From Candidatus Latescibacterota bacterium (GTDB lineage: Bacteria > Latescibacterota > UBA2968), in assembly GCA_022823725.1 (NCBI GenBank), contig JAJEHL010000007.1, positions 1 to 64,000 on the forward strand: a stretch of DNA of 64,000 bases, given 5' to 3'. Below are positions 5,004 to 36,791 of this stretch, piece after piece. A program made the translations under genes and the position numbers. The first letter of the stretch is position 1. Every line of letters starts with the position of its first letter. The notes under the pieces were generated by a model. The model made no database searches. It was not told where the DNA came from and was given only the letters and a program-made list of their open reading frames with translations.

Positions 5004-8000
5004 ATGAGACGGACGAGTCTGTTTTTCTTTTTTTTCATAGCTCTGGCATTCTCAGCCAGTGCTGTTTTTGCCGGATCTACCGGTAAAATTTCGGGCAAGG
5101 TCGTGGAGAAATCCACGGGCGAGACCCTGCCCGGTGCCAATATCGTCATTGAAGGCACCACATTGGGTGCAGTCACAGATTCCGATGGCAATTATTTCAT
5201 CATCAATGTGCCGCCGGGTTCTTATACCGTCAGTGCGAGTATGGTCGGCTATCACAAAACAACACAGATCAATGTGCGGGTCTTTATCGACCTGACCACG
5301 ACGATGAATTTCTCCGGCGATTTTGGCCTTGTCGAAGAGACCATTGAACTGGCAGAGATCACGGTGGTTGCCGAACTCCCGGTGGTGCAACCCGATATTT
5401 CCGCCAACGTCGCCAATATCTCCGCGCAGGATGTCGAAAGCCTGCCTGTAACCAGCGTGAATGAAGTCGTGCAATTAGAGGCAGGGGTTCTCGCCTCTGC
5501 CAATGGCGAACTCTCGATTCGAGGCAGTGCTTTTAATGAGATCGCCTTTTCGGTCGATGGCCTGTCCATGCGCGATGGACGCAACAACGAACCGTATTCA
5601 ACGGTGAGTTATACCTCAATCAAAGAAATGAGCGTGCAGTCGGGTGGGTTCAACGCCGAATACGGCAACGTGCGCTCGGGCCTGGTCAATATTGTAACCA
5701 AAGAAGGCGATAAGCGACGCTACAACGGCGATGTGTTGTTGCGACACAGCGGCGCACAGCGCGATTATTTTGGTCCGTTGCCAAACCATCCCAATGGCTT
5801 TTTTTGGCGGCCATTTACAGATCCCGCTGTGAAGAACGTAGGCACCCATTCGCCCGAAAGCCCCTGGGATGTGTACACGCGGCGTCAATATCGAGTCTGG
5901 ACCGGGTGGAATACCATTGTACAGAGGTGGGCTGCCACCCCTACTGATCCGTATCACGGTGTTGGGGTGAAAGACACGGGCGCAGATGAATCGACTTTAC
6001 CAGTCGATGAACTGCAAGTTGATGATGCGGTCATCACAGAGTTGTTCGAGTGGTATCGCCGCAAAGATCTGGAAGTTCGCAATGCGGATTTCGATATCGA
6101 CCTGGGTTTTGGCGGTCCCTTGATTCCGGGATTGAGCGAAAAACTGGGCGGTCTGAGGTTCTTTGCTTCGGGCAAGCGCGAACGCAGAGCCTATATGATG
6201 CCACGCAATATCGATGAATACGAAAACGACTGGGGCCGCGTAAAGGTCACGTCGGATATTCGCAATAACATGAAATTGAGTGTCGAAGCGATGTCGGGCG
6301 AAGAATTTGGGTTGAATCCGAACAAGAGTGGTTTTCCCAACATGTGGCGCGGCAATCAGGAAATGAATCTTAATGATGCTGACCTGATTTGGGCAAATCA
6401 CCACGAGAATACACTTCAGATCAAGCGCAATAATATCGGCCTCAGCTTTTCACACGTGTTGAGCCCCAGAACATTTTACGAATTTCGCGTTCAGAGGATG
6501 CAATCGGACTTTTTGACCGAAAAGTATCCAGACCGCGATTTGACGGCTGTTGAAAAGACCATTCCCCGCAATCCGGACTTCGCGCCTCCCAGTCCGTCTT
6601 TACAAGTTTCAGAGGTCACGCAGAACCACATCGGGTTGACATCTGCACCTGATGATTATTTTATGAAAAATGAAGTCTTTGTTGACGGCCTGTATTTTGG
6701 GGGGCACTGGGCCAATGGACGCGACGACTCTGAAGTCGTAGCCTATACAACGCGTTTTGACATCACAAGCCAGCGCAATCAGGTCGCGCAATTTAAGGCG
6801 GGTTTAGAATGGATCGCCAGTGATTACGATGTCAATCACGAAATTGCACAACCTTTCTTCAAAAACAATGCGGCCCCCAAATACATCTGGCAACGCACCC
6901 CAAACCAATTTGCCGGATACGTGCAGACCAAGCTCGAATTCAATGCGATGATCGCAAACCTGGGGGTGCGTTGGGATCGCTGGAATGGGAGTGGCGAATG
7001 GTGGGTTTATGAGGATTTCTCCGGTGCGTTTGGGCCTAAAATTGGCAAAGACAATCTCGAGGAAGCACTCGAACAGGCGCCTGTTAAGACCCTGTCTTAT
7101 TTAAGCCCGCGCCTGGGTATTTCGTTCCCGGTAACAGCAGATAGCAAATTGTTTTTTAACTATGGGCACTTCCGCCAGATGCTGAACCCACACAATCTCT
7201 TTCTCGTCGATGAAATAAATACGGGCGCAGTCTCTCGGATTGGCAATCCCAATCACCCAATGCCGCGCACGATCAATTACGAACTCGGCTTTGAGCAGAA
7301 TTTGTTTGACCGGTATTTGCTGCGCCTGACCGGATATTACAAAGCCAACAACGACCAGACAATTGGTGTGCGCTACACCAATCTGGACCAAACCGTATCT
7401 TACAACCTTTTTGAACCCCTCAACTACGACGATATCCGGGGCTTTGAAATAACCATTAGAAAGCACAGGGGCAAGTGGTTTGGCGGATCAGTCAACTATA
7501 CGTATCTGCAAACTAAGGACGGCAACTTTGGTCGGCGCCAGATATTTGAAAATCGCTTAGAGCAATCCACTTTTGATGCGACCTCAACACAGCACTATCA
7601 AAGCCGACCCGCCAGCCGGCCCTTCGCCAGATTGTCGCTGGAATTTTACACGCCGCGCGACTTTGGTCCCCAGGTCTCTAAGTTTTATCCCTTGGGCAAG
7701 TGGGATATGTCTTTCGTGGGCAACTGGCGAGCGGGTCAGTACAGCAACTGGTATGGGCCAGAAGGTGGCGATATCCCCGGTTTGATCAGAAATGTCCAGT
7801 ACAAGAGTATCAGGAATATGGATCTGCGCCTGACGAAGCAGTTTGCGATGATGGGCGTCAGAGCCATGTTCTTTTTAGACGTCGATAATGTGTTTAATCT
7901 CAAGCGACTCAATAGCAGTTCTGCCAACCCTGGGCTCGAAGACTGGGAATTCTATATGGTATCCCTGCATTTGCCAGAAGACACATTTGGCGAGTTCGAA

Positions 8001-27048: not shown

Positions 27049-27075
27049 ATACCTGCAGAGCACTCAAAAATTATT

Positions 27076-27089
27076 GCTAATTATTTCGC
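27076..27089 (+). promoter_or_regulatory. Upstream operator copy for the first GWxTD gene (probable BlaI-type site)
   Basis: GCTAATTATTTCGC is an imperfect dyad (10 of 14 positions symmetric; half-sites GC[T/G]AA). The same 14 bases occur at 27137, 29760 and 29827, always around a -35/-10 pair. Confidence 0.65.
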
Positions 27090-27098
27090 TATTTGGAC

Positions 27099-27127: not shown

Positions 27128-27136
27128 TCTTTTTGT

Positions 27137-27150
27137 GCTAATTATTTCGC
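27137..27150 (+). promoter_or_regulatory. Downstream operator copy for the first GWxTD gene
   Basis: A second exact copy of GCTAATTATTTCGC, 61 bases from the first and just past the expected transcription start. Here it is extended to TGC...GCA, making the dyad longer. Confidence 0.65.
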
Positions 27151-27202
27151 ACAATATCACTCAGATTGATAAAAAGACTACTCTCTTTTGAAGGGAATAA
27201 CA

Positions 27203-29668
27203 ATGCGATTTACAACTCATATCGGATTGATCGCACTGACATGCCTCTTAAGTTTCGGCTCGTCCAAAGGGGAAACAGCAATAGATTCGCTATTTCACAT
27301 GGCAGAGCAACAAGTCGGTCATGTGAGTCGTGCGAAAAGCATTGTGGCCTTCAAGGAGATTATTTCCAAAGATAGAGATTACGCACCTGCATACAACGAA
27401 TTGGCCAAACTGCACCTGTTGGACTACAGCGTAAATGGCCGACAGCGCGCAACGCGGATGATACAGCAGGCAATCGCAAGTGCCCCCGACAATATTGAGT
27501 ATCGGCTGACACGCGGAAAGATTTGGTGGCATCAAGGCTTTCGATTTCGGGCATTGAACCAATTCAAGAACGTGATCAAAAAGCATCCGAAAAATACGGA
27601 TGTCCTCAATAGTCTGGGTATGTTCTTGGTGTATGATTTTCTATCACAGAAAGATAGAAGAGCGACATTAAGAGAGATGGACATGAGGTCCAGTGTATTC
27701 ATAGATTTCAAGAGAATGGCAATGCGATCCAGGATAAAAGATTTCAAAATCTTTGCCGATGAAGCCAAACAAGAAGCAATTCAGGTCCTGCGAAAAAGCA
27801 TCCAATTGGATGGGACCAATCAGCAACCTTATTATTTATTGGGCATACTCTACTTTGAAGACAAATATTGGGATGCCTTCCATGCCTTGATGCAAGCCCT
27901 GCGCGCGCAACATCCAGATGACAAAAATGCGCTCTTGTTCTGTGGCCTTGCCGCCTATCAAATTGGCGAGTTCAATGACTCACATGGCTATTATCAACGT
28001 GCCCTTGACTTGATGAGTATCGAAGAGCGCGAGTTGCTCGAATCTATCGACTTGCTTGCATCCGAAGAAGATCATGCATCCCGCGATACGACGCAGACGA
28101 TAGATGCGCTATTGGAACGCGAGATGTTTTGGAAGCGCCAGGATCCGCTCTATTTGTCTGATTTTAACGAAAGAAAGATGGCGCACTTTGGTCGTATGGC
28201 ATACTCAAATTTGCGGTTCAGGCGATTTTCAGATGATGTCGAGGGCTGGCAGACAGACATGGGGAAGACCTATATCAAATTTGGAAGATATAGACTGCGC
28301 GTAACAACCTATAAAGGGACATGGGATTCTAAAGAGGCCTTGAATGCTGCAATGATGGAGTTCTGGTATTACGAAGATTTTCAGTTCCAATTTTGTGGCA
28401 CGACGGATGATATCTGGAATTTTTGCGGCGGTGCTGTAGGCTACCTCCCAAGCGCGGTCCCTCCAGTAGAAATGAGTGCCTTTACGTTTGAGGGGTTAGT
28501 ATCAAAAGCTGATACTGCGGGAGTACGACCGTATTTTATGAGGAGAAAACCACTGGCTTCCTTTGCACCACGTACATTGGGAGAGGCCTCGCATCATACC
28601 TTCCGAAAAACAGCCCAACGCTTTATCGATCCGTATTTACAGCGAAAATACACCCTCCCCTATCAGATCGCCACCTTTGAAGAACAGAACAGGATACGCG
28701 TCGAACTAAGCTATATGATTCCAAAAAACCGATTAACAGAAAATCCAGAAACGGGCAAGGTGCGTTTTTGGGATGGTGTCTTCTTCTTTGATCAGCAGTG
28801 GAATGATATGTATAACCACCGCAAATCCAGATCCCTCACTTTGCCACCACAGAAGCCAGCCTCCAATGCTGCTGCACGGCATCGCAACGATCACCTGTTG
28901 ATCTCGCGCGCGGTATCTGTACGCCAGGACAGCTATCACTTTTCTGTGGAATTACTGGATCAAACATCTGGTCTTATTGGTGTGGCACGCGATAAGAAAC
29001 CCTTCGTATATAACCAGGATTTTCGCCTGAGTGATTTGTTGGTCGGCAGCGATATTCAAGCGAAGAAAGCATTGCCAGAAAGCCGTGACGATCTGCACAT
29101 CACCCCCAATCCCGTCCGTACATTTTCACAGTCTGAACCGGTCTTTATCTATCTGGAACTGTATGATCTCCAACGCAACGATTTTGGCAGCACGCAGTAT
29201 GAGATCTCCTACACCATCGGCAAGCCAGAAGTGGATACCCTGTCTCCGACCTTGTTCGCCTCTCAAAGTCTGATTGAGACCCTGGGCAAAATAGAGATTG
29301 ATCTGCGCAGTGAACAAGCAAACCAAATTGCTGCCGAGGATTTGCAGACCGGACAATCACAGGATGATGATGTGCTCGATAGCGTATTTCCCGATAGCGA
29401 TATATGGGGAGAGACAAAGGTTTATACGAGTGGTGGACAGGTCCATCACATCGCCGCTGAGGGCTTGAAGGTCAAGCGATCACGACAGGGCGATTTGACG
29501 CGAACTGTGACAGCGAATTACGAAGGTAATCGAGAAGATGATTTCACGTATTTGCAGATCGATGTGAACCAGGTGCCTGCGGGGATTTATCAATTGACCG
29601 TATTGGCAAGGGACAAGCGGACGGATCAGACGGATAGGAAGTACGTTTATTTTCGTATTGTAAAGTAA
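27203..29668 (+). CDS. Secreted TPR / GWxTD-domain protein (paralogue A)
   Basis: 821 residues from ATG 27203 (GAAGGGA upstream; a TTG 15 bases earlier is not used). Residues 1-22 are a signal peptide. TPR-like helices follow at about 30-130 and 200-270 (APAYNELAKLHL, PYYLLGILYFED, EFNDSHGYYQRALDL). The GWxTD domain has its motif at residues 348-352 (GWQTD), followed by GKTYIKFG and a cysteine pair C398-x9-C408. The C-terminal 200 residues are beta-rich. The function is unknown; GWxTD proteins are envelope or secreted proteins of FCB and related phyla. It has its own promoter with the same operators as the blaI-like gene. Paralogue B lies at 34320-36791. Confidence 0.8.
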   Translation: MRFTTHIGLIALTCLLSFGSSKGETAIDSLFHMAEQQVGHVSRAKSIVAFKEIISKDRDYAPAYNELAKLHLLDYSVNGRQRATRMIQQAIASAPDNIEYRLTRGKIWWHQGFRFRALNQFKNVIKKHPKNTDVLNSLGMFLVYDFLSQKDRRATLREMDMRSSVFIDFKRMAMRSRIKDFKIFADEAKQEAIQVLRKSIQLDGTNQQPYYLLGILYFEDKYWDAFHALMQALRAQHPDDKNALLFCGLAAYQIGEFNDSHGYYQRALDLMSIEERELLESIDLLASEEDHASRDTTQTIDALLEREMFWKRQDPLYLSDFNERKMAHFGRMAYSNLRFRRFSDDVEGWQTDMGKTYIKFGRYRLRVTTYKGTWDSKEALNAAMMEFWYYEDFQFQFCGTTDDIWNFCGGAVGYLPSAVPPVEMSAFTFEGLVSKADTAGVRPYFMRRKPLASFAPRTLGEASHHTFRKTAQRFIDPYLQRKYTLPYQIATFEEQNRIRVELSYMIPKNRLTENPETGKVRFWDGVFFFDQQWNDMYNHRKSRSLTLPPQKPASNAAARHRNDHLLISRAVSVRQDSYHFSVELLDQTSGLIGVARDKKPFVYNQDFRLSDLLVGSDIQAKKALPESRDDLHITPNPVRTFSQSEPVFIYLELYDLQRNDFGSTQYEISYTIGKPEVDTLSPTLFASQSLIETLGKIEIDLRSEQANQIAAEDLQTGQSQDDDVLDSVFPDSDIWGETKVYTSGGQVHHIAAEGLKVKRSRQGDLTRTVTANYEGNREDDFTYLQIDVNQVPAGIYQLTVLARDKRTDQTDRKYVYFRIVK

Positions 29669-29742: not shown

Positions 29743-29759
29743 GACATTTAAAAATCATT

Positions 29760-29773
29760 GCTAATTATTTCGC
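29760..29773 (+). promoter_or_regulatory. Upstream operator copy of the blaI-like operon
   Basis: An exact copy of GCTAATTATTTCGC, ten bases before the -35 box. Its position relative to the promoter is the same as in the first GWxTD gene. Confidence 0.65.
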
Positions 29774-29782
29774 TATTTGGAC

Positions 29783-29811
29783 TTGACAACGAGTTTTTAA
29801 TAGGATATTTT
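29783..29811 (+). promoter_or_regulatory. Promoter of the blaI-like operon
   Basis: TTGACA (29783-29788), 17 bases, TATTTT (29806-29811). Sequence and spacing equal those of the promoter at 27099-27127, and the surrounding bases are largely conserved, showing that the two control regions are copies. Confidence 0.7.
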
Positions 29812-29826
29812 TCTGGAAACGGATAT

Positions 29827-29840
29827 GCTAATTATTTCGC
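29827..29840 (+). promoter_or_regulatory. Downstream operator copy of the blaI-like operon
   Basis: An exact copy of GCTAATTATTTCGC, 67 bases from the upstream copy and inside the 5' leader, 25 bases before the repressor ATG. Autoregulation by the encoded repressor is the natural reading. Confidence 0.65.
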
Positions 29841-29865
29841 ATGGCTAAATAAAAAGGAGCTAAAA

Positions 29866-30249
29866 ATGGCAAGACTGCGACAAGAGGGATTGACGACCCG
29901 TGAAATAGAACTCATACAGGTACTCTGGCAACAGAAAGAAGCAACCGTCGAAATGATCCAGGCAAAATTACCCAACCGATTAGAAGGATCAACCATTCGC
30001 ACGCTCCTGCAAATCATGGAAGACAAAGGCTATGTGACGCATGAAAAGCAAGGACGCGCCAATGTGTACCGCCCCGTAATCGAACAGCAAAGCGTCCAAT
30101 CCTCTGCAATGAAACACATCATTCAAAAACTATTTGGCGGATCAACCGAACTCTTACTGGCACGACTGGTTGAAGACGAAGATATAGACATGGACGATGT
30201 GGCGCGATTGCGCGAAAAACTCAAGCAACGCAAAGGAGGCACATCATGA
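29866..30249 (+). CDS. BlaI/MecI/CopY-family transcriptional repressor
   Basis: 127 residues from ATG 29866 with AAGGAG seven bases upstream; a longer frame from 29758 runs through the promoter and is not real. It has the penicillinase-repressor winged helix: LTTREIELIQVLWQQKEATVE, then STIRTLLQIMEDKGYV and a wing with QGRANVYRP. The C-terminal third should dimerise and contain the site cut on induction. Members repress until cleaved by a partner M56 membrane peptidase, which here starts in the overlapping ATGA. The paired dyads upstream of this gene and of the first GWxTD gene are the probable binding sites. Confidence 0.9.
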   Translation: MARLRQEGLTTREIELIQVLWQQKEATVEMIQAKLPNRLEGSTIRTLLQIMEDKGYVTHEKQGRANVYRPVIEQQSVQSSAMKHIIQKLFGGSTELLLARLVEDEDIDMDDVARLREKLKQRKGGTS

Positions 30250-33200
30250 TCGATACACCTGCACTGGAACCCATTGCCATCTTCCTCCTCAATGCGACTA
30301 TCAAGACCACCCTATTTATGGGGATTGTTCTACTTGCCGTGTGGCTTCTGGGTACGCGACAAGCTTCCAAACGCAGTTTGCTTTTGAACTGGTGTCTTAT
30401 TGGCGTACTGGTGATTCCCATCGCGTCTTTGTGTATGCCTTCACTGCGATTTCAATTTGATGCGCCATCATTCCCTTCAGAGCCAGTATTACCGCCCGCC
30501 GAACGTATTGTTGCACCCGATACACCTCTGGCAAAACCCATACCCGCATTGAAGCAACAAAGGGTATCTAATAGGGCGTTTTCAGAAAACCCAGAACCAT
30601 CTCAAAATTTCGTATCTCCCCCACCTGCGCAAATTGTTTTCGCCAAAAATGCCGAGACAAAATCAATTGATTGGACGACCTACATACTGAATAAAATCAC
30701 TTCAGCGCATGCTTTGTATGGTGTGATGGCGGTCTATGCTATTGGCGTATTGGTTTTACTGATTCGGGTAATCTATTGCCTTATAATGGTTTATAAATTT
30801 CGCCGATCTCTATTACTCTGTGAAGACGAACAGCTTCGCAATGATCTACAGGTCTTAAAGAATCAATTGGGTATTCGGCGCTCTGTCGCACTCGCTGTCA
30901 GTGATAAAATCGGCAGCCCAACTCAGGTCGGACTCTTGAATCCAGTAGTCGTATTGCCCGCGCCTATGGTCGAATCGCGTGGCCAGTTCGAATCGATTTT
31001 GACTCACGAACTCATTCATGTGAAGCGATGGGATTGCCTCTATCGTCTGTTGGCAATGGTCGGCATGGCATTTTACTGGTTCAATCCCCTATTCCACCGC
31101 GTCAAACACCTGCTTTTTGAAGTTCAAGAACAAACATGCGATGATTGGACCGTGACGACAACCGGCAATTCTGAAAGCTATGCAGATACGCTCCTGAATG
31201 TGGCGACCCTACTACGTCCTCGTCCTGCGATGGCCCTGGGCATGGACATGGCGCGACCAACTCAGGTCATGGAGCGGGTCAATCGCATTATCACCCTGGG
31301 CGGCCATGTGTCTCCGCGCGTTGGTCGCGTATCGGCACTGGTGTTGGCAGTGATATTTATCGGCGGGGCAACAACTATTGGCAGCCTGACCACTTCAAAA
31401 GTCGATCTCAATGATCAAAAGGTTGTGTTTGAAGATGGTATTGCCGTAACCGATACCAGCGACGTATCGCAGCGACTACTTCCGTTCAAAATGCGCGATG
31501 GTCGCATGTGGTGGCGCGGCGAGAATGGTCTCTATTTACAGGATGGAGATGTGTGGCAAAAGTTCACATTGCCGGAAGGTGGTTCTTTCGAACAGGTACA
31601 TGCCTTTATGCAAGCGCGCAATGGCTCAATATGGTTTGCTGGCATATATAAAAATGGGCCAATTGTCGTGCGCTTTAGTGAAAAGACATGGCAGATATGG
31701 GATTCAAAAACAACGGGCCTGGGAAAAATTACCGCTGGATATGACTTTGCCGAAGATGAGGCTGGCGGTATCTGGATTTCCCACCACGGTATGGGAAATA
31801 TCAGAGCATACGGAGGCCCTGATCGCTTCAAAGGCGGAAACGGCGTCTTACACTTTGATGGCAAAGCGTGGCACAACTATACCGTGGAAGATGGATTGAT
31901 TCACAATCGGGTTTACAATGTGGAAGCCGATTCCAAAGGCGGCGTGTGGATCGCAACCCTTCGCGGATTGAGCCACTACAAAGATGGAAAATGGGCCTCT
32001 CATATTGTCGATAGCGTGCCTGTAGAGGGCGTGCGTAATGGCAATAGATACGATGGCCGCAAGGTATATAAACTATTTTCTGATCGAAAAGGTACGCTTT
32101 GGGCTGTGCATGGATCGGTTATTGGGCGTACCATAACGCGGCGCAGAGGCGGAATTTCCAGCTTTGACGGCACAGCCTGGACACACTACGATGCACATGA
32201 TGGACTGCCTATCCATGCGTCTCGAAATATCTGGCAAACAGAAAATGGCGATCTGTGGTTTGGTACGCATTCAGGTGATCAACGGGATGTAGAGGCAAAA
32301 GGTCTGGTGCGATATAAAGACGGGATGTGGTTGCGATTTACGCGCAAACACGGTATTCCCAGAGATTCTGTATGGGGCCTGGTTGAAAAAGGCGATGGGT
32401 CTTTTTATCTGGGTGTTTCTGGTATTGTATCTTATGAGCCACCTATCGGTCACCTATCAACAATATCTGGGAAAGTGATCGATCAGCGCGATGGCCAACC
32501 CGTAGCAAATATGGGAATATGGGTTGAATACGACGATGGCGAGGTGCATGCCGGAACTATGACAGATGAAGATGGACGCTATCGCGTTGAAGTCACGCCA
32601 GGATCATACCGCGTGCGAATCGCGTCCAAGAATGCAGCCGACCCTGTGACCGTTGAGGCAAAGCGCGAGAGTAAAATTGAAGACATTGACCTGCTCTTGC
32701 TCAACTCGCGCCGCATCTCTGGTCGCGTAATCGATACATCCAATAATCCGATTGCCAATGCTGTCGTGGTGATTTCCGATGATACTTCAGAAGACCTGCG
32801 CCTATCCCCCCAGATCGTGACCACAGATGCCAATGGAAAATTTGAAGGCTGGCAGGTATCGGGACCGAAGGCTACTTTTGAAGTCGCAGCAAAAGGATAC
32901 ACACAAATCGCGCGAGAAGTTGAAAATGCCATTGAAGAGCAAGTAGTGATTAGTCTCAAAAAAGGCAAGACGTTTCGCGGTCGCGTTGTGGATGAGTTGG
33001 GCAAACCCATTGCCTGGGCGCGTGTTGGGCCTGGACCTCCGCCGGATCCAAAAAAGAAAGGATATACATTGCCCGCATTGCCCTTCCAGCGCAATACTTA
33101 TACGGATGCGTCGGGTTTGTTCACTATAAATGACGTAGCGGGTGGTCACATCTGGGTGAATCATCCCAAGACCGGAATGGTGAATCAAGAGGTTATGCCT

Positions 33201-34280
33201 GCCGATGATGTGATAGATATCCGCATAGAGCGTTTGCGTTTGTACTCTGTTTCAGGCGTGGTATCGCTAACTGGTGTGCCCGTAGAAAGGCTAATGGTCA
33301 GAACCATTGCCCTTAATGGAGCAGAATCCAGACCCCAAGTAGGCTACCCAGACGCTAATGGTGCATATCGTCAGGAGGGTCTGGAGCCGGGGAAATATCA
33401 TATTGCCGTACACGCACCCGAAAAAGAGGAAAGGGATGGACGCACAATCGCAATACATCGCAGTGTTCAATCTCAGGTGCTGGTAATCAAAGACCGCGAT
33501 GTAATATTGAACTTTGAGCCTCTGGGTGATGCGCGAATTACAGGTGTGGCAACTTACAAGGGACAGCCCGTTTCAGATGTTGCCGTAAGCATCCATACTA
33601 CAGGCGATGATCCTGAGAATTTTATCTCACTAAACGGCAAAAAAACAGACAAAGAGGGCCGGTTTGAATTGCGCGGTCTGCCGTCTGCACAGATTACCAT
33701 TTCTTTTCGTAAAATGGAACGCCTCGGTTCAGGTGGAAAACGCTGGAGCAAAGTCGATAAAATTGATCTGACAGAAAAAAAAGAATTGAGTTATATAGCA
33801 GAATTGAAAATGGAGGAACGTCCGACCTTGAGCCTGGGAGATATGGCACCTGAATTTGAAGCCAAACAGTTGGATGGTTCAACATTCCGGCTCGCAGATT
33901 ACCGGGGCAAAAAAGCCGTGTTGATCGACTTTTGGGCAACGTGGTGTCCACCGTGCGTCGATGAAATTCCAACAATCAAAAAAATTGCTGAAACCTATCG
34001 CAATCAGGGATTGGAAGTCGTGGGCGTGAGTTTGGATCGCGAAGAAAAGGCACTGCGAGATTTTGTAAAACGAGAAAATTTGAGCTATGTGCAGGTATTT
34101 GAGAAAGAAAAGACGCGGACAATTACAAAATCCTACGGTGTATGGGGCATCCCATCGGTATTTCTGATAGATAAAAATGGCGTCATCAACGCAATGAAGC
34201 TACGCGGAACTCGTACGGAAGCGGCTGTAAAAGCGTTATTAGACACTGGCCTACAGACGGCTGATGGAAATTCGCGATAA
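30246..34280 (+). CDS. M56 (BlaR1-like) membrane metallopeptidase fused to propeller, CarboxypepD-reg-like and thioredoxin domains
   Basis: 1344 residues, overlapping the repressor gene by four bases. Residues 1-380 are the M56 part: helices near 10-35, 40-60 and 155-185, zinc motif HELIH at 254-258, a further acidic ligand near 295 (EQTCDDW), and a last helix near 358-378. No penicillin-binding domain follows. Instead come a region of two-component-regulator-propeller-like repeats (about 415-730; GSIWFAG, GGVWIATLRGLSHY, GDLWFGTHSG), about five carboxypeptidase-regulatory-like beta-sandwiches (740-1165; ISGKVIDQRDGQPVA, ISGRVIDTSNNPIA) and a TlpA-like thioredoxin (about 1195-1344) with W-C1234-P-P-C1237. 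By BlaR1 topology the extra domains would be periplasmic. It probably cleaves, or triggers cleavage of, the BlaI-like repressor in response to an envelope or redox cue. Confidence 0.88.
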   Translation: MIDTPALEPIAIFLLNATIKTTLFMGIVLLAVWLLGTRQASKRSLLLNWCLIGVLVIPIASLCMPSLRFQFDAPSFPSEPVLPPAERIVAPDTPLAKPIPALKQQRVSNRAFSENPEPSQNFVSPPPAQIVFAKNAETKSIDWTTYILNKITSAHALYGVMAVYAIGVLVLLIRVIYCLIMVYKFRRSLLLCEDEQLRNDLQVLKNQLGIRRSVALAVSDKIGSPTQVGLLNPVVVLPAPMVESRGQFESILTHELIHVKRWDCLYRLLAMVGMAFYWFNPLFHRVKHLLFEVQEQTCDDWTVTTTGNSESYADTLLNVATLLRPRPAMALGMDMARPTQVMERVNRIITLGGHVSPRVGRVSALVLAVIFIGGATTIGSLTTSKVDLNDQKVVFEDGIAVTDTSDVSQRLLPFKMRDGRMWWRGENGLYLQDGDVWQKFTLPEGGSFEQVHAFMQARNGSIWFAGIYKNGPIVVRFSEKTWQIWDSKTTGLGKITAGYDFAEDEAGGIWISHHGMGNIRAYGGPDRFKGGNGVLHFDGKAWHNYTVEDGLIHNRVYNVEADSKGGVWIATLRGLSHYKDGKWASHIVDSVPVEGVRNGNRYDGRKVYKLFSDRKGTLWAVHGSVIGRTITRRRGGISSFDGTAWTHYDAHDGLPIHASRNIWQTENGDLWFGTHSGDQRDVEAKGLVRYKDGMWLRFTRKHGIPRDSVWGLVEKGDGSFYLGVSGIVSYEPPIGHLSTISGKVIDQRDGQPVANMGIWVEYDDGEVHAGTMTDEDGRYRVEVTPGSYRVRIASKNAADPVTVEAKRESKIEDIDLLLLNSRRISGRVIDTSNNPIANAVVVISDDTSEDLRLSPQIVTTDANGKFEGWQVSGPKATFEVAAKGYTQIAREVENAIEEQVVISLKKGKTFRGRVVDELGKPIAWARVGPGPPPDPKKKGYTLPALPFQRNTYTDASGLFTINDVAGGHIWVNHPKTGMVNQEVMPADDVIDIRIERLRLYSVSGVVSLTGVPVERLMVRTIALNGAESRPQVGYPDANGAYRQEGLEPGKYHIAVHAPEKEERDGRTIAIHRSVQSQVLVIKDRDVILNFEPLGDARITGVATYKGQPVSDVAVSIHTTGDDPENFISLNGKKTDKEGRFELRGLPSAQITISFRKMERLGSGGKRWSKVDKIDLTEKKELSYIAELKMEERPTLSLGDMAPEFEAKQLDGSTFRLADYRGKKAVLIDFWATWCPPCVDEIPTIKKIAETYRNQGLEVVGVSLDREEKALRDFVKRENLSYVQVFEKEKTRTITKSYGVWGIPSVFLIDKNGVINAMKLRGTRTEAAVKALLDTGLQTADGNSR

Positions 34281-34319: not shown

Positions 34320-36791
34320 ATGCGATTCACAATTCATATCGGACTGATTGCGTTGGCCTGCATTTTGGGTCCTGGCTCGTCCAAAGGCGAAACAACAATA
34401 GACTCGTTATTTCAGGCCGCAGAACAGCAAGTCGGTCATGTGAGTCAGAAGGAAAGCATCAAAGCTTTCGAGGAGATTATTTCCAAAGACAAAAATTATG
34501 CGCCTGCATACAACGCATTGGCTAACCTGTATTTACAAGCCAATACCGTGAATGATCGACAGCGTGCTGCCCAAATGATTCTCAAAGCGATTATGATTGA
34601 TCCAAACAATGCGGAGTATCGTCTAACACGCGGGAAAATTTGGTGGCATCAAGACTTTCGATTTCGGGCATTGAACCAATTCAAGAACGTGATCAAAAAG
34701 CATCCGGAAAATACGGATGTCCTCAATAATCTGGGTATGTTCTTGGTGTATGATTTTCTATCACAGAAAGATAGAAGAGCACCATTTAAAGAGATGGACA
34801 TGGGGTCCAGGGTAAAATATTACAGGCTAATGGCAATGAGGCCCAAAATAAAAGATTTCAAAATCTTTGCCGATGAAGCCAAACAAGAAGCAATTCAGGT
34901 CCTGCGAAAAAGCATCCAATTGGATGGGACCAATCAGCAACCTTATTATTTTTTGGGCATCCTCTACTTTGAAGATGAGAACTGGTATGCGTTTCAAACC
35001 CTGATGCAAGACTTGTACGCGCAATATCCAGATGACAAAAATGCGCTGCTATTTTGCGGTTTTGCCGCCTATCAGATTGGCGAATTCGATGAATCGCATG
35101 AATACTATCAACGCGCCCTTGACTTGATGAGTATCGAAGAGCGCGAGTTGCTCGAATCTATTGATCTGCTTGTGACTGAAGAAGATCATGCATCCCGCGA
35201 TACGACACAGACGATTGATGAATTATTGGAACGCGAAATGTTTTGGAAGCGCCAGGATCCGCTCTATTTGTCTGATTTTAATGAAAGAAAAATGGCGCAC
35301 TTTGGTCGCATAGCGTATTCGAATTTGCGGTTCAGGCGATTTTCTGATGATGTCGAGGGCTGGCAGACGGATATGGGGAAGACCTATATCAAATTTGGAA
35401 GATATAGACGTCGCGTGACAACCAATAAAGGGACATGGGATTCTAAAGAGGCCTTGAATGCTACAATGATGGAGTTCTGGTATTACGAAGATTTTCAGTT
35501 CCAATTTTGTGGCACTACGAATGATATCTGGTATTTTTGCGGCGGTTCCTGGTATGGTGTCAGCGACCGCCTGCCTATAGGAGCAAGTGTTTTCCGTGAA
35601 TACTACTTCGGGGATAAGCTTCCGCTATTGGCGATGATCAGGGAAAAGTATCCTAAAGAAGGGATGAGACAAGCCTTTGCTCCTGTGCCTCGTACACTTC
35701 GGGAAGCCTCACATCATATATTCAAAAAAACAGAGCAACGGTTTGTCGATCCATATTTGTATCGAAAATATTCCCTCCCCTATCAGGTTGCAGCTTTTGA
35801 AGAACGAGACAGCGTGCGCGTCGAACTCAGCTATATGATTCCAAAAGACCGATTAGCAGAAAATCTCAAGACTGGCAAGGTGCGTTTTTGGGACGGCGTC
35901 TTCTTCTTTAATGAACAGTGGAATGATATGTATAATGATCGCCAATCCAGAACCTTCACATTACCGCCGCAGAAACCGGCACAAAACGCCGCTGCACAAC
36001 ATCGCAGCGATCACCTGTTGGTATCGCGCGAGGTGTCTGTACCTCAAGGACGCTATCATTTTTCAGTAGAATTTATGGATCAAACATCTGGTCTCATTGG
36101 TATAGCACGCGATGAGAAGCAGTATGTCTATGACGATGAGACCTTTCATCTGAGTGATCTGCTCGTCGGCAGCGATATTCAAGCGCGGAATGCGTTGATA
36201 GAAAGCCGTGATGATCTGCACATCACCCCCAACCCAGTCCGTACATTTTCACCATCTGAACCGGTCTTTATCTATCTGGAACTGTATGATCTCCAACGCA
36301 ACGATTTTGGCAATACCCAGTATGAGATCTCCTACACTATCGGCAAGCCAGAGGTAGATACGCTATCGCCCACATTATTCGCGTCTCAAGAGCTGATTGA
36401 GACAATGGGTAAAACAGAGATAGATCTGGAGACCGGACAAACAGACCAAATTGCTGCCGAGGATTTGCAGACCGGACAACCACAGGATGGTGATGAAATC
36501 AGTAGCGTATTTCCCGATAGCGATATATGGGGGGAGACAAGGGTTTATACGAGTGGAGGGCAAGTCCATCACATCGCCGCCGAAGGCTTGAAGATCAAGC
36601 GATCAAAAGATGGCGATTTGACGCGCACAGTAACAGCGAATTACGAAGGCAACCGAGAAGATGACTTCACCTACTTGCAGATTGATGTGAATCAGGTGCC
36701 CGAAGGGATTTATCAATTGACTGTGCTGGCGAAGGACAAGCGAACGGATCAGACGGATAGGAAATATGTCTATTTTCGCATTGTCGAGTAA
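34320..36791 (+). CDS. Secreted TPR / GWxTD-domain protein (paralogue B)
   Basis: 823 residues from ATG 34320, with GAAGGGG upstream. It starts 39 bases after the M56 gene with no promoter between, so it belongs to the blaI-like operon. The architecture is that of paralogue A: signal peptide, TPR-like helices, GWQTD at 347-351, the C397-x9-C407 pair and a beta-rich end. Long stretches are identical to A at the DNA level, for example around 34653-34716 and 34855-34950, while residues about 408-455 are unrelated in sequence. The role is unknown; it is likely to be the main product induced by the system together with paralogue A. Confidence 0.8.
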   Translation: MRFTIHIGLIALACILGPGSSKGETTIDSLFQAAEQQVGHVSQKESIKAFEEIISKDKNYAPAYNALANLYLQANTVNDRQRAAQMILKAIMIDPNNAEYRLTRGKIWWHQDFRFRALNQFKNVIKKHPENTDVLNNLGMFLVYDFLSQKDRRAPFKEMDMGSRVKYYRLMAMRPKIKDFKIFADEAKQEAIQVLRKSIQLDGTNQQPYYFLGILYFEDENWYAFQTLMQDLYAQYPDDKNALLFCGFAAYQIGEFDESHEYYQRALDLMSIEERELLESIDLLVTEEDHASRDTTQTIDELLEREMFWKRQDPLYLSDFNERKMAHFGRIAYSNLRFRRFSDDVEGWQTDMGKTYIKFGRYRRRVTTNKGTWDSKEALNATMMEFWYYEDFQFQFCGTTNDIWYFCGGSWYGVSDRLPIGASVFREYYFGDKLPLLAMIREKYPKEGMRQAFAPVPRTLREASHHIFKKTEQRFVDPYLYRKYSLPYQVAAFEERDSVRVELSYMIPKDRLAENLKTGKVRFWDGVFFFNEQWNDMYNDRQSRTFTLPPQKPAQNAAAQHRSDHLLVSREVSVPQGRYHFSVEFMDQTSGLIGIARDEKQYVYDDETFHLSDLLVGSDIQARNALIESRDDLHITPNPVRTFSPSEPVFIYLELYDLQRNDFGNTQYEISYTIGKPEVDTLSPTLFASQELIETMGKTEIDLETGQTDQIAAEDLQTGQPQDGDEISSVFPDSDIWGETRVYTSGGQVHHIAAEGLKIKRSKDGDLTRTVTANYEGNREDDFTYLQIDVNQVPEGIYQLTVLAKDKRTDQTDRKYVYFRIVE

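Follow-up and report, generated by a model that had tools for sequence, protein, structure and literature searches.

A gene at 30246-34280 of the window (the whole 64,000-nucleotide stretch analysed, from a Candidatus Latescibacterota bacterium) encodes a single protein in which a BlaR1-like M56 membrane peptidase is followed by a propeller, five CarboxypepD_reg repeats and a ResA/TlpA-like thioredoxin, next to the gene of a BlaI/MecI-type repressor whose predicted operators also precede an unlinked gene for a secreted thioredoxin. Membrane proteases of the BlaR1 kind are the penicillin sensors of staphylococci; here, with a probability of roughly 0.55, regulated proteolysis of the BlaI-BlaR1 type would take a periplasmic thioredoxin ectodomain as its input and give envelope proteins, including a thioredoxin, as its output, and the system probably monitors and adjusts thiol chemistry or the folding of proteins in the envelope. 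The first-pass annotation of this DNA had described the fusion protein; BlaI partner, operators and regulon are added here.

Domain architecture of the fusion protein

The gene and its parts, all on the forward strand, are:
30246-34280, M56 - propeller - CarboxypepD_reg x5 - thioredoxin protein (1344 aa, ATG start, no internal stops)
30294-31391, four transmembrane (TM) helices and cytoplasmic gluzincin (hydropathy; alignment to BlaR1 cryo-EM chains 8exp/8exs)
31431-32450, propeller region, residues 396-735, predicted periplasmic (Reg_prop 3.6e-10; W-motif blades)
32460-33800, CarboxypepD_reg (transthyretin-like) repeats, residues 739-1185 (PF13620, 5 stretches, 5.6e-41)
33837-34193, ResA/TlpA-like thioredoxin, residues 1198-1316 (Pfam; ResA 4nmu 1.7e-22; C1234-C1237 of WCPPC at 33945-33956)

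Pfam matches bear out the anatomy given by the first-pass annotation, with Peptidase_M56 (PF05569) at residues 143-346 (5e-33, 114.9 bits against a cut-off of 31), AhpC-TSA (PF00578)/Redoxin at residues 1198-1316 (7e-28, 97.4 bits) and, for the propeller, a single Reg_prop blade above cut-off (residues 550-571); the full propeller of residues 396-735 is suggested by repeated W-motif blades read off the sequence. An AlphaFold model from the single sequence was too poor for use (mean pLDDT 43.9). Hydropathy places the TM helices at residues 17-35, 45-63, 163-181 and 364-382, and in the alignment of the M56 part with solved BlaR1 (8exp/8exs) the residues named critical in the BlaR1 cryo-EM paper (H201ExxH, D210, E242xxxD246 and Y261; PMC9834060) correspond to H254-H258 (HELIH, residues 254-258), D263, E295xxxD299 and Y312, the motif set of a multi-helix membrane gluzincin of peptidase family M56.

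The thioredoxin, whose top solved-structure match is ResA (4nmu, 1.7e-22), shares the AhpC-TSA/Redoxin fold and WCxPC motif of the periplasmic thiol-disulfide oxidoreductases ResA, TlpA and CcmG, and Pfam, the ResA structures and the lipoprotein paralogs described below mark it as an extracytoplasmic, TlpA/ResA-like domain with WCxxC. Unlike those free or singly anchored reductases, it forms the C-terminal end of a signalling protease, in which C1234 and C1237 of the WCPPC motif (residues 1233-1237) are the sole cysteines of the ectodomain and no other lies past residue 300. As had been claimed, no penicillin-binding domain follows the last helix: Pfam and the NCBIfam matches listed contain no PBP/transpeptidase or beta-lactamase domain for this protein, blaR1_generic (NCBIfam) covers only residues 138-397 (76 bits against a cut-off of 400), and the class-D-beta-lactamase-like penicillin-binding sensor of BlaR1/MecR1 was not found.

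One gene, conserved among sister species

HELIH and W-C1234-P-P-C1237 lie, as first read, on one 1344-residue chain encoded by a single ORF, and one-ORF full-length orthologs occur in five sister species (G037, 1340 aa, 86%; G032, 1348 aa, 87%; G029, 1347 aa, 83%; G031, 1346 aa, 81%; G038, 1365 aa, 63%), with an additional 1459-aa copy in G037; in most sister species the locus is flanked by a polB-type polymerase gene and galK. A sequencing error or frameshift joining two genes, which had been named in advance as a way for the fusion to fail, has a negligible probability: the M56 part is broken into two frames in two sister MAGs (G036 and G030, where this may be true breakage or assembly error), but the full-length orthologs, those of G037 and G038 from single-contig genomes, rule it out, and dN/dS is well below 1 over most of the chain. 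Relative to the window, dN/dS is minimal in the M56 part (0.13-0.19) and the thioredoxin (0.08-0.20) and higher in the stalk repeats of residues 1001-1185 (0.39-0.64). WCxPC is conserved in 31/31 aligned thioredoxin domains and invariant within the genus; judged from these alignments, the thioredoxin active site is under strong purifying selection.

Membrane topology

BlaR1 has an N-out/C-out topology (PMC9834060), with which both the hydropathy of the M56 part and its K/R-rich TM1-TM2 loop (3 K/R, no D/E) agree. Paralogs in G036 and G029 carry a lipoprotein signal, MNNILFNIAVMFIAGTVAIGC-S, at the position of TM4, ahead of a propeller-CarboxypepD_reg-thioredoxin body; this MNNILFNIAVMFIAGTVAIGC replaces TM4 of the window protein (GRVSALVLAVIFIGGATTIGS) and resembles it as a homologous segment, and in a 182-aa protein of G037 a thioredoxin comes straight after a signal that resembles TM4 and has a lipobox (GRVSALVIAVMFIAGTVAIGC-K) at its end. 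A lipoprotein signal in the place of TM4 argues that the ectodomain is exported, so that the thioredoxin of the M56 protein is, on this comparison of sequences, periplasmic; the cytoplasmic placement that the first-pass annotation had set as its other refuter does not hold.

A BlaI partner and paired operators

The regulatory features, again all on the forward strand, are:
29866-30249, BlaI/MecI-type winged-helix repressor, 127 aa, ATG at 29866 (PF03965 4e-29; MecI structure 1okr 1.5e-11)
29759-29774 and 29826-29841, blaI operator pair, 67 bp apart, flanking a promoter (TTGACA 29783-29788, 17 bp, TATTTT 29806-29811)
27075-27090 and 27136-27151, operator pair before the first GWxTD gene (TGCTAATTATTTCGCW), 61 bp apart, flanking a TTGACA/TATTTT promoter
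27203-29668, first GWxTD/TPR secreted protein (TIGR04514 49 bits, TPR matches), a neighbour conserved in several sister species
34320-36791, second GWxTD/TPR protein (TIGR04514 53.5 bits), directly downstream of the M56 gene

The end of blaI runs 4 bp into the M56 gene, and PF03965 covers 1-115 of 115 (101.7 bits), that is, the Penicillinase_R winged helix with its dimerisation domain. None of the NCBIfam models named for BlaI, MecI or CopY reaches its cut-off with the repressor; CopY_TcrY was its top NCBIfam match (63.6 bits, cut-off 122), and CopY-type copper sensing was rejected because the repressor lacks cysteines. Each of the genome's three M56 genes above cut-off follows a BlaI gene, the ectodomains of the other two being DUF4837 and TonB_C.

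Alignment of sister species revealed two copies of an operator dyad, TGCTAATTATTTCGCA, ahead of blaI. Such pairs are spaced by 61-67 bp with a TTGACA promoter between them, and the window holds four perfect sites and eight with at most two mismatches, against 0.77 expected (0/100 shuffles reached 8). The 5.3-Mb genome has only three operator pairs, ahead of blaI, of the upstream GWxTD gene and of a gene for a secreted dockerin-thioredoxin protein, and its other two BlaI genes have unlike upstream sequences. At another locus, L133, the blaI of an M56-TonB_C pair has a different palindrome, ATATTACTAAAAAATTAGTAATAT, at about 7356-7380, about 40 bases before its start. Together, the BlaI/MecI-type repressor and the autoregulation predicted from these operators indicate coupling of the BlaR1/MecR1 type.

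A predicted regulon with a secreted thioredoxin

The first GWxTD ORF is listed from TTG 27188, with ATG 27203, after GAAGGG, as the likelier start; the second, listed from TTG 34305, 25 bases past the M56 stop, is probably co-transcribed with the M56 gene. An obligatory partnership with GWxTD proteins was rejected, because G031 has the blaI-M56 fusion pair alone; the literature search found no mention of GWxTD. The third operator pair (C1:61835/61901) lies upstream of the gene for a secreted protein that combines dockerin-like repeats with a thioredoxin (GTWCGPC); this gene crosses the end of contig C1 and continues on C27, the two sequences overlapping. AhpC-TSA matches number only 20 in the genome, so that chance is an unlikely reason for the one unlinked target being a thioredoxin. 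An in-frame TGA is present in five AhpC-TSA matches of the genome, which makes them candidate selenocysteine thioredoxin-like proteins (G000:C35:264254-264625, C40:96713-97087, C25:35025-35372, C35:111622-111912 and C25:65207-65413).

In 11 scanned genomes of the genus (including this one, G000), whose orthologous cassettes in sister species do not count as independent events, the operators precede blaI in nine, and also GWxTD/TPR genes or a related 1045-aa TPR protein. They precede the dockerin-thioredoxin gene in G000, G029 (twice), G030, G034, G035 and G037, usually with genes for secreted LRR proteins next, and Pfam confirmed Dockerin_1/EF-hand and AhpC-TSA in these operator-linked proteins; in G032 and G033 no operator was found directly upstream of the dockerin-thioredoxin gene. 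An LRR gene takes its place behind the operator in G031, and in G037 WD40 and MacB-type permease genes are also among the targets. A DsbD_TM protein, a possible electron donor, was found in 11/11 genomes of the genus.

Exchange of ectodomains and relatives in other taxa

In G033 an orthologous M56 part (86%) carries another ectodomain, in which similarity was found only in the C-terminal thioredoxin (39% identity); an unfused thioredoxin gene of G037, seemingly homologous to that end, adjoins the end of an M56-type TonB_C gene. Between the window and G032 (L120), identity is 96-100% from 29460 to about 31460, across blaI and the M56 part, and then 84-94% just past TM4, a drop that in these alignments bears the mark of recombinational exchange between M56 and ectodomain. 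Residues 1001-1090 are 44-50% identical to G029, G031, G032 and G038 as against 92% to G037; this pattern and the G032 drop are, as far as sequence comparison goes, mosaic exchange of ectodomain pieces. The polB-galK interval of sister species (L131 876-2534, L115, L118, L124) is made up of arrayed units, duplicated, truncated and reshuffled, among them a 377-aa M56 N-terminus-CarboxypepD_reg chimera, thioredoxin-only genes and M56-less lipoproteins.

The scan of genome contigs reached relatives through the thioredoxin motif alone. In six loci of the same class (L138, L139, L141, L142, L146 and L149), some chosen for matches to both genes, which biases the cluster frequency upward, BlaI, M56 and a secreted TlpA-like thioredoxin occur together as separate adjacent genes; unlike in the window, their thioredoxin has its own gene, which lacks both CarboxypepD_reg and propeller. 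At L139 (3167-4618, by Pfam) and at L138 (7679-9133, by position and length only) the gene right after the BlaI-thioredoxin-M56 cluster encodes a sulfatase. One Isosphaeraceae genome (Planctomycetota) encodes three M56-CarboxypepD_reg-AhpC/TSA proteins (1376, 1396 and 1377 aa), of which the third lacks WCxPC; a WD40 relative of 1488 aa in that genome matches thioredoxin weakly. The domain order at its loci L184, L185 and L186 is identical to that of the window protein, and BlaI lies directly upstream at L185 and L186; in contrast to the window, no Reg_prop propeller was found there and L186 has lost WCxPC. Coupling of M56 and thioredoxin, as the same-class clusters and planctomycete fusions imply, recurs across phyla, and since WCxPC is absent from 2/4 planctomycete fusion-like ORFs with HExxH, the general architecture can do without thiol chemistry. 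More widely, M56 ectodomains of the phylum include DUF4837, TonB_C, ExbD with FlgD_ig, TPR and a PD40 propeller (proteins with such varied ectodomains lie at L132 7422, L133 7784, L140 9390, L151 3998 and L152 5361).

Proposed mechanism and alternative readings

In BlaR1, ligand binding by the sensor, a transmembrane signal, direct cleavage of BlaI and derepression are established (PMC9834060; PMC7593790). Its systems (BlaR1/MecR1 with BlaI/MecI, in S. aureus and B. licheniformis) share with that of the window the BlaI-M56 pair, the four-helix M56 part with HExxH, D, ExxxD and Tyr, an extracytoplasmic C-terminal domain, operators and autoregulation, the last predicted here. We transfer their mechanism because the protease residues are conserved, BlaI is coupled, and topology and operators correspond; as read from the DNA, architecture, topology, intact protease motifs, BlaI coupling, operators and predicted regulon membership are all in place. 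BlaI on the paired operators would keep blaI-M56 and the GWxTD gene behind it repressed, along with the upstream GWxTD gene and the unlinked secreted dockerin-thioredoxin gene. With four crossings of the inner membrane, the M56 protein would have its zinc protease on the cytoplasmic side and its propeller, CarboxypepD_reg stalk and TlpA-like thioredoxin in the periplasm, where the ectodomain would meet its cue; the likeliest candidates are a client in oxidised or mixed-disulfide form and the redox state of its own Cys1234-Cys1237 pair. TM4 would pass on the change, the activated protease would cleave BlaI, and the thioredoxin and the rest of the envelope regulon would be produced.

We infer a cue of thiol state or thiol clients because the thioredoxin was kept in the ectodomain swap, the genus shows no variation in WCxPC and the repressor's unlinked target is itself a secreted thioredoxin; counting against a redox reading, the GWxTD, LRR, WD40 and MacB-type permease targets are not redox enzymes. 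The first-pass proposal that thiol-disulfide state is signal or output gains from the operator before the secreted thioredoxin gene, the unfused clusters and the G033 swap, its sensor half being kept here as a proposal. Only tentatively do we suggest the most specific form, a transmembrane redox receptor acting by regulated proteolysis, in which periplasmic thiol status would be sensed by a tethered relative of a repressor-controlled thiol enzyme.

Alternatively, and rather unlikely in our estimate, the thioredoxin could be the effector, an anchored periplasmic thiol reductase, while the protease answers another cue, such as a ligand bound by the propeller or the stalk repeats, with the fusion coordinating enzyme level and regulator. 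The strongly selected active site, the presence of DsbD, the thioredoxin-only lipoprotein of G037 and the M56-less lipoproteins of G029 and G036 favour such a role, which however leaves unexplained why the cognate repressor should control a separate secreted thioredoxin, and why in G033 propeller and stalk were replaced yet the thioredoxin end was kept. It is more doubtful still that the domain merely binds an envelope client or partner, as a decoy of secreted thioredoxins, so that occupancy and not redox state would signal: M56 ectodomains of the phylum often copy parts of envelope proteins (TonB_C, ExbD, DUF4837, PD40, TPR), planctomycete fusions with a degenerate thioredoxin (no WCxPC) retain M56 and BlaI, and the BlaR1 sensor itself resembles class D beta-lactamases (PMC9834060, PMC7593790), but within this genus WCxPC does not vary, and few parts of the chain are as conserved as the thioredoxin.

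Implications

Returning to regulated proteolysis with the thioredoxin ectodomain as input, the fusion belongs to the M56/BlaI-coupled signalling type with a new ectodomain variant, and lies outside the beta-lactam sensors: its ectodomain consists of propeller, CarboxypepD_reg and thioredoxin in place of a penicillin-binding domain, and the system is predicted to control GWxTD proteins and a secreted thioredoxin instead of a beta-lactamase or PBP2a. Unfused same-class clusters and planctomycete fusions indicate that the kind is already known and the variant new; no description of an M56-thioredoxin protein was found in the literature search. There is a parallel in that the BlaR1 sensor resembles class D beta-lactamases (PMC9834060, PMC7593790) and BlaR1 induces a beta-lactamase, a sensor domain resembling the enzyme class induced.

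The literature searched treats BlaR1/M56 proteins as beta-lactam sensors, whereas the searched genomes commonly carry M56 genes whose ectodomains are of other kinds; with a non-beta-lactam member for which signal class, operator and regulon are predicted, the question of what M56 receptors sense becomes testable. If the proposal is true, envelope thiol state would join the signals read by direct proteolysis of a repressor, and, with a redox receptor, the BlaR1 principle that a sensor is related to what it induces would reach envelope redox and, more broadly, M56 proteins whose ectodomains copy envelope parts.
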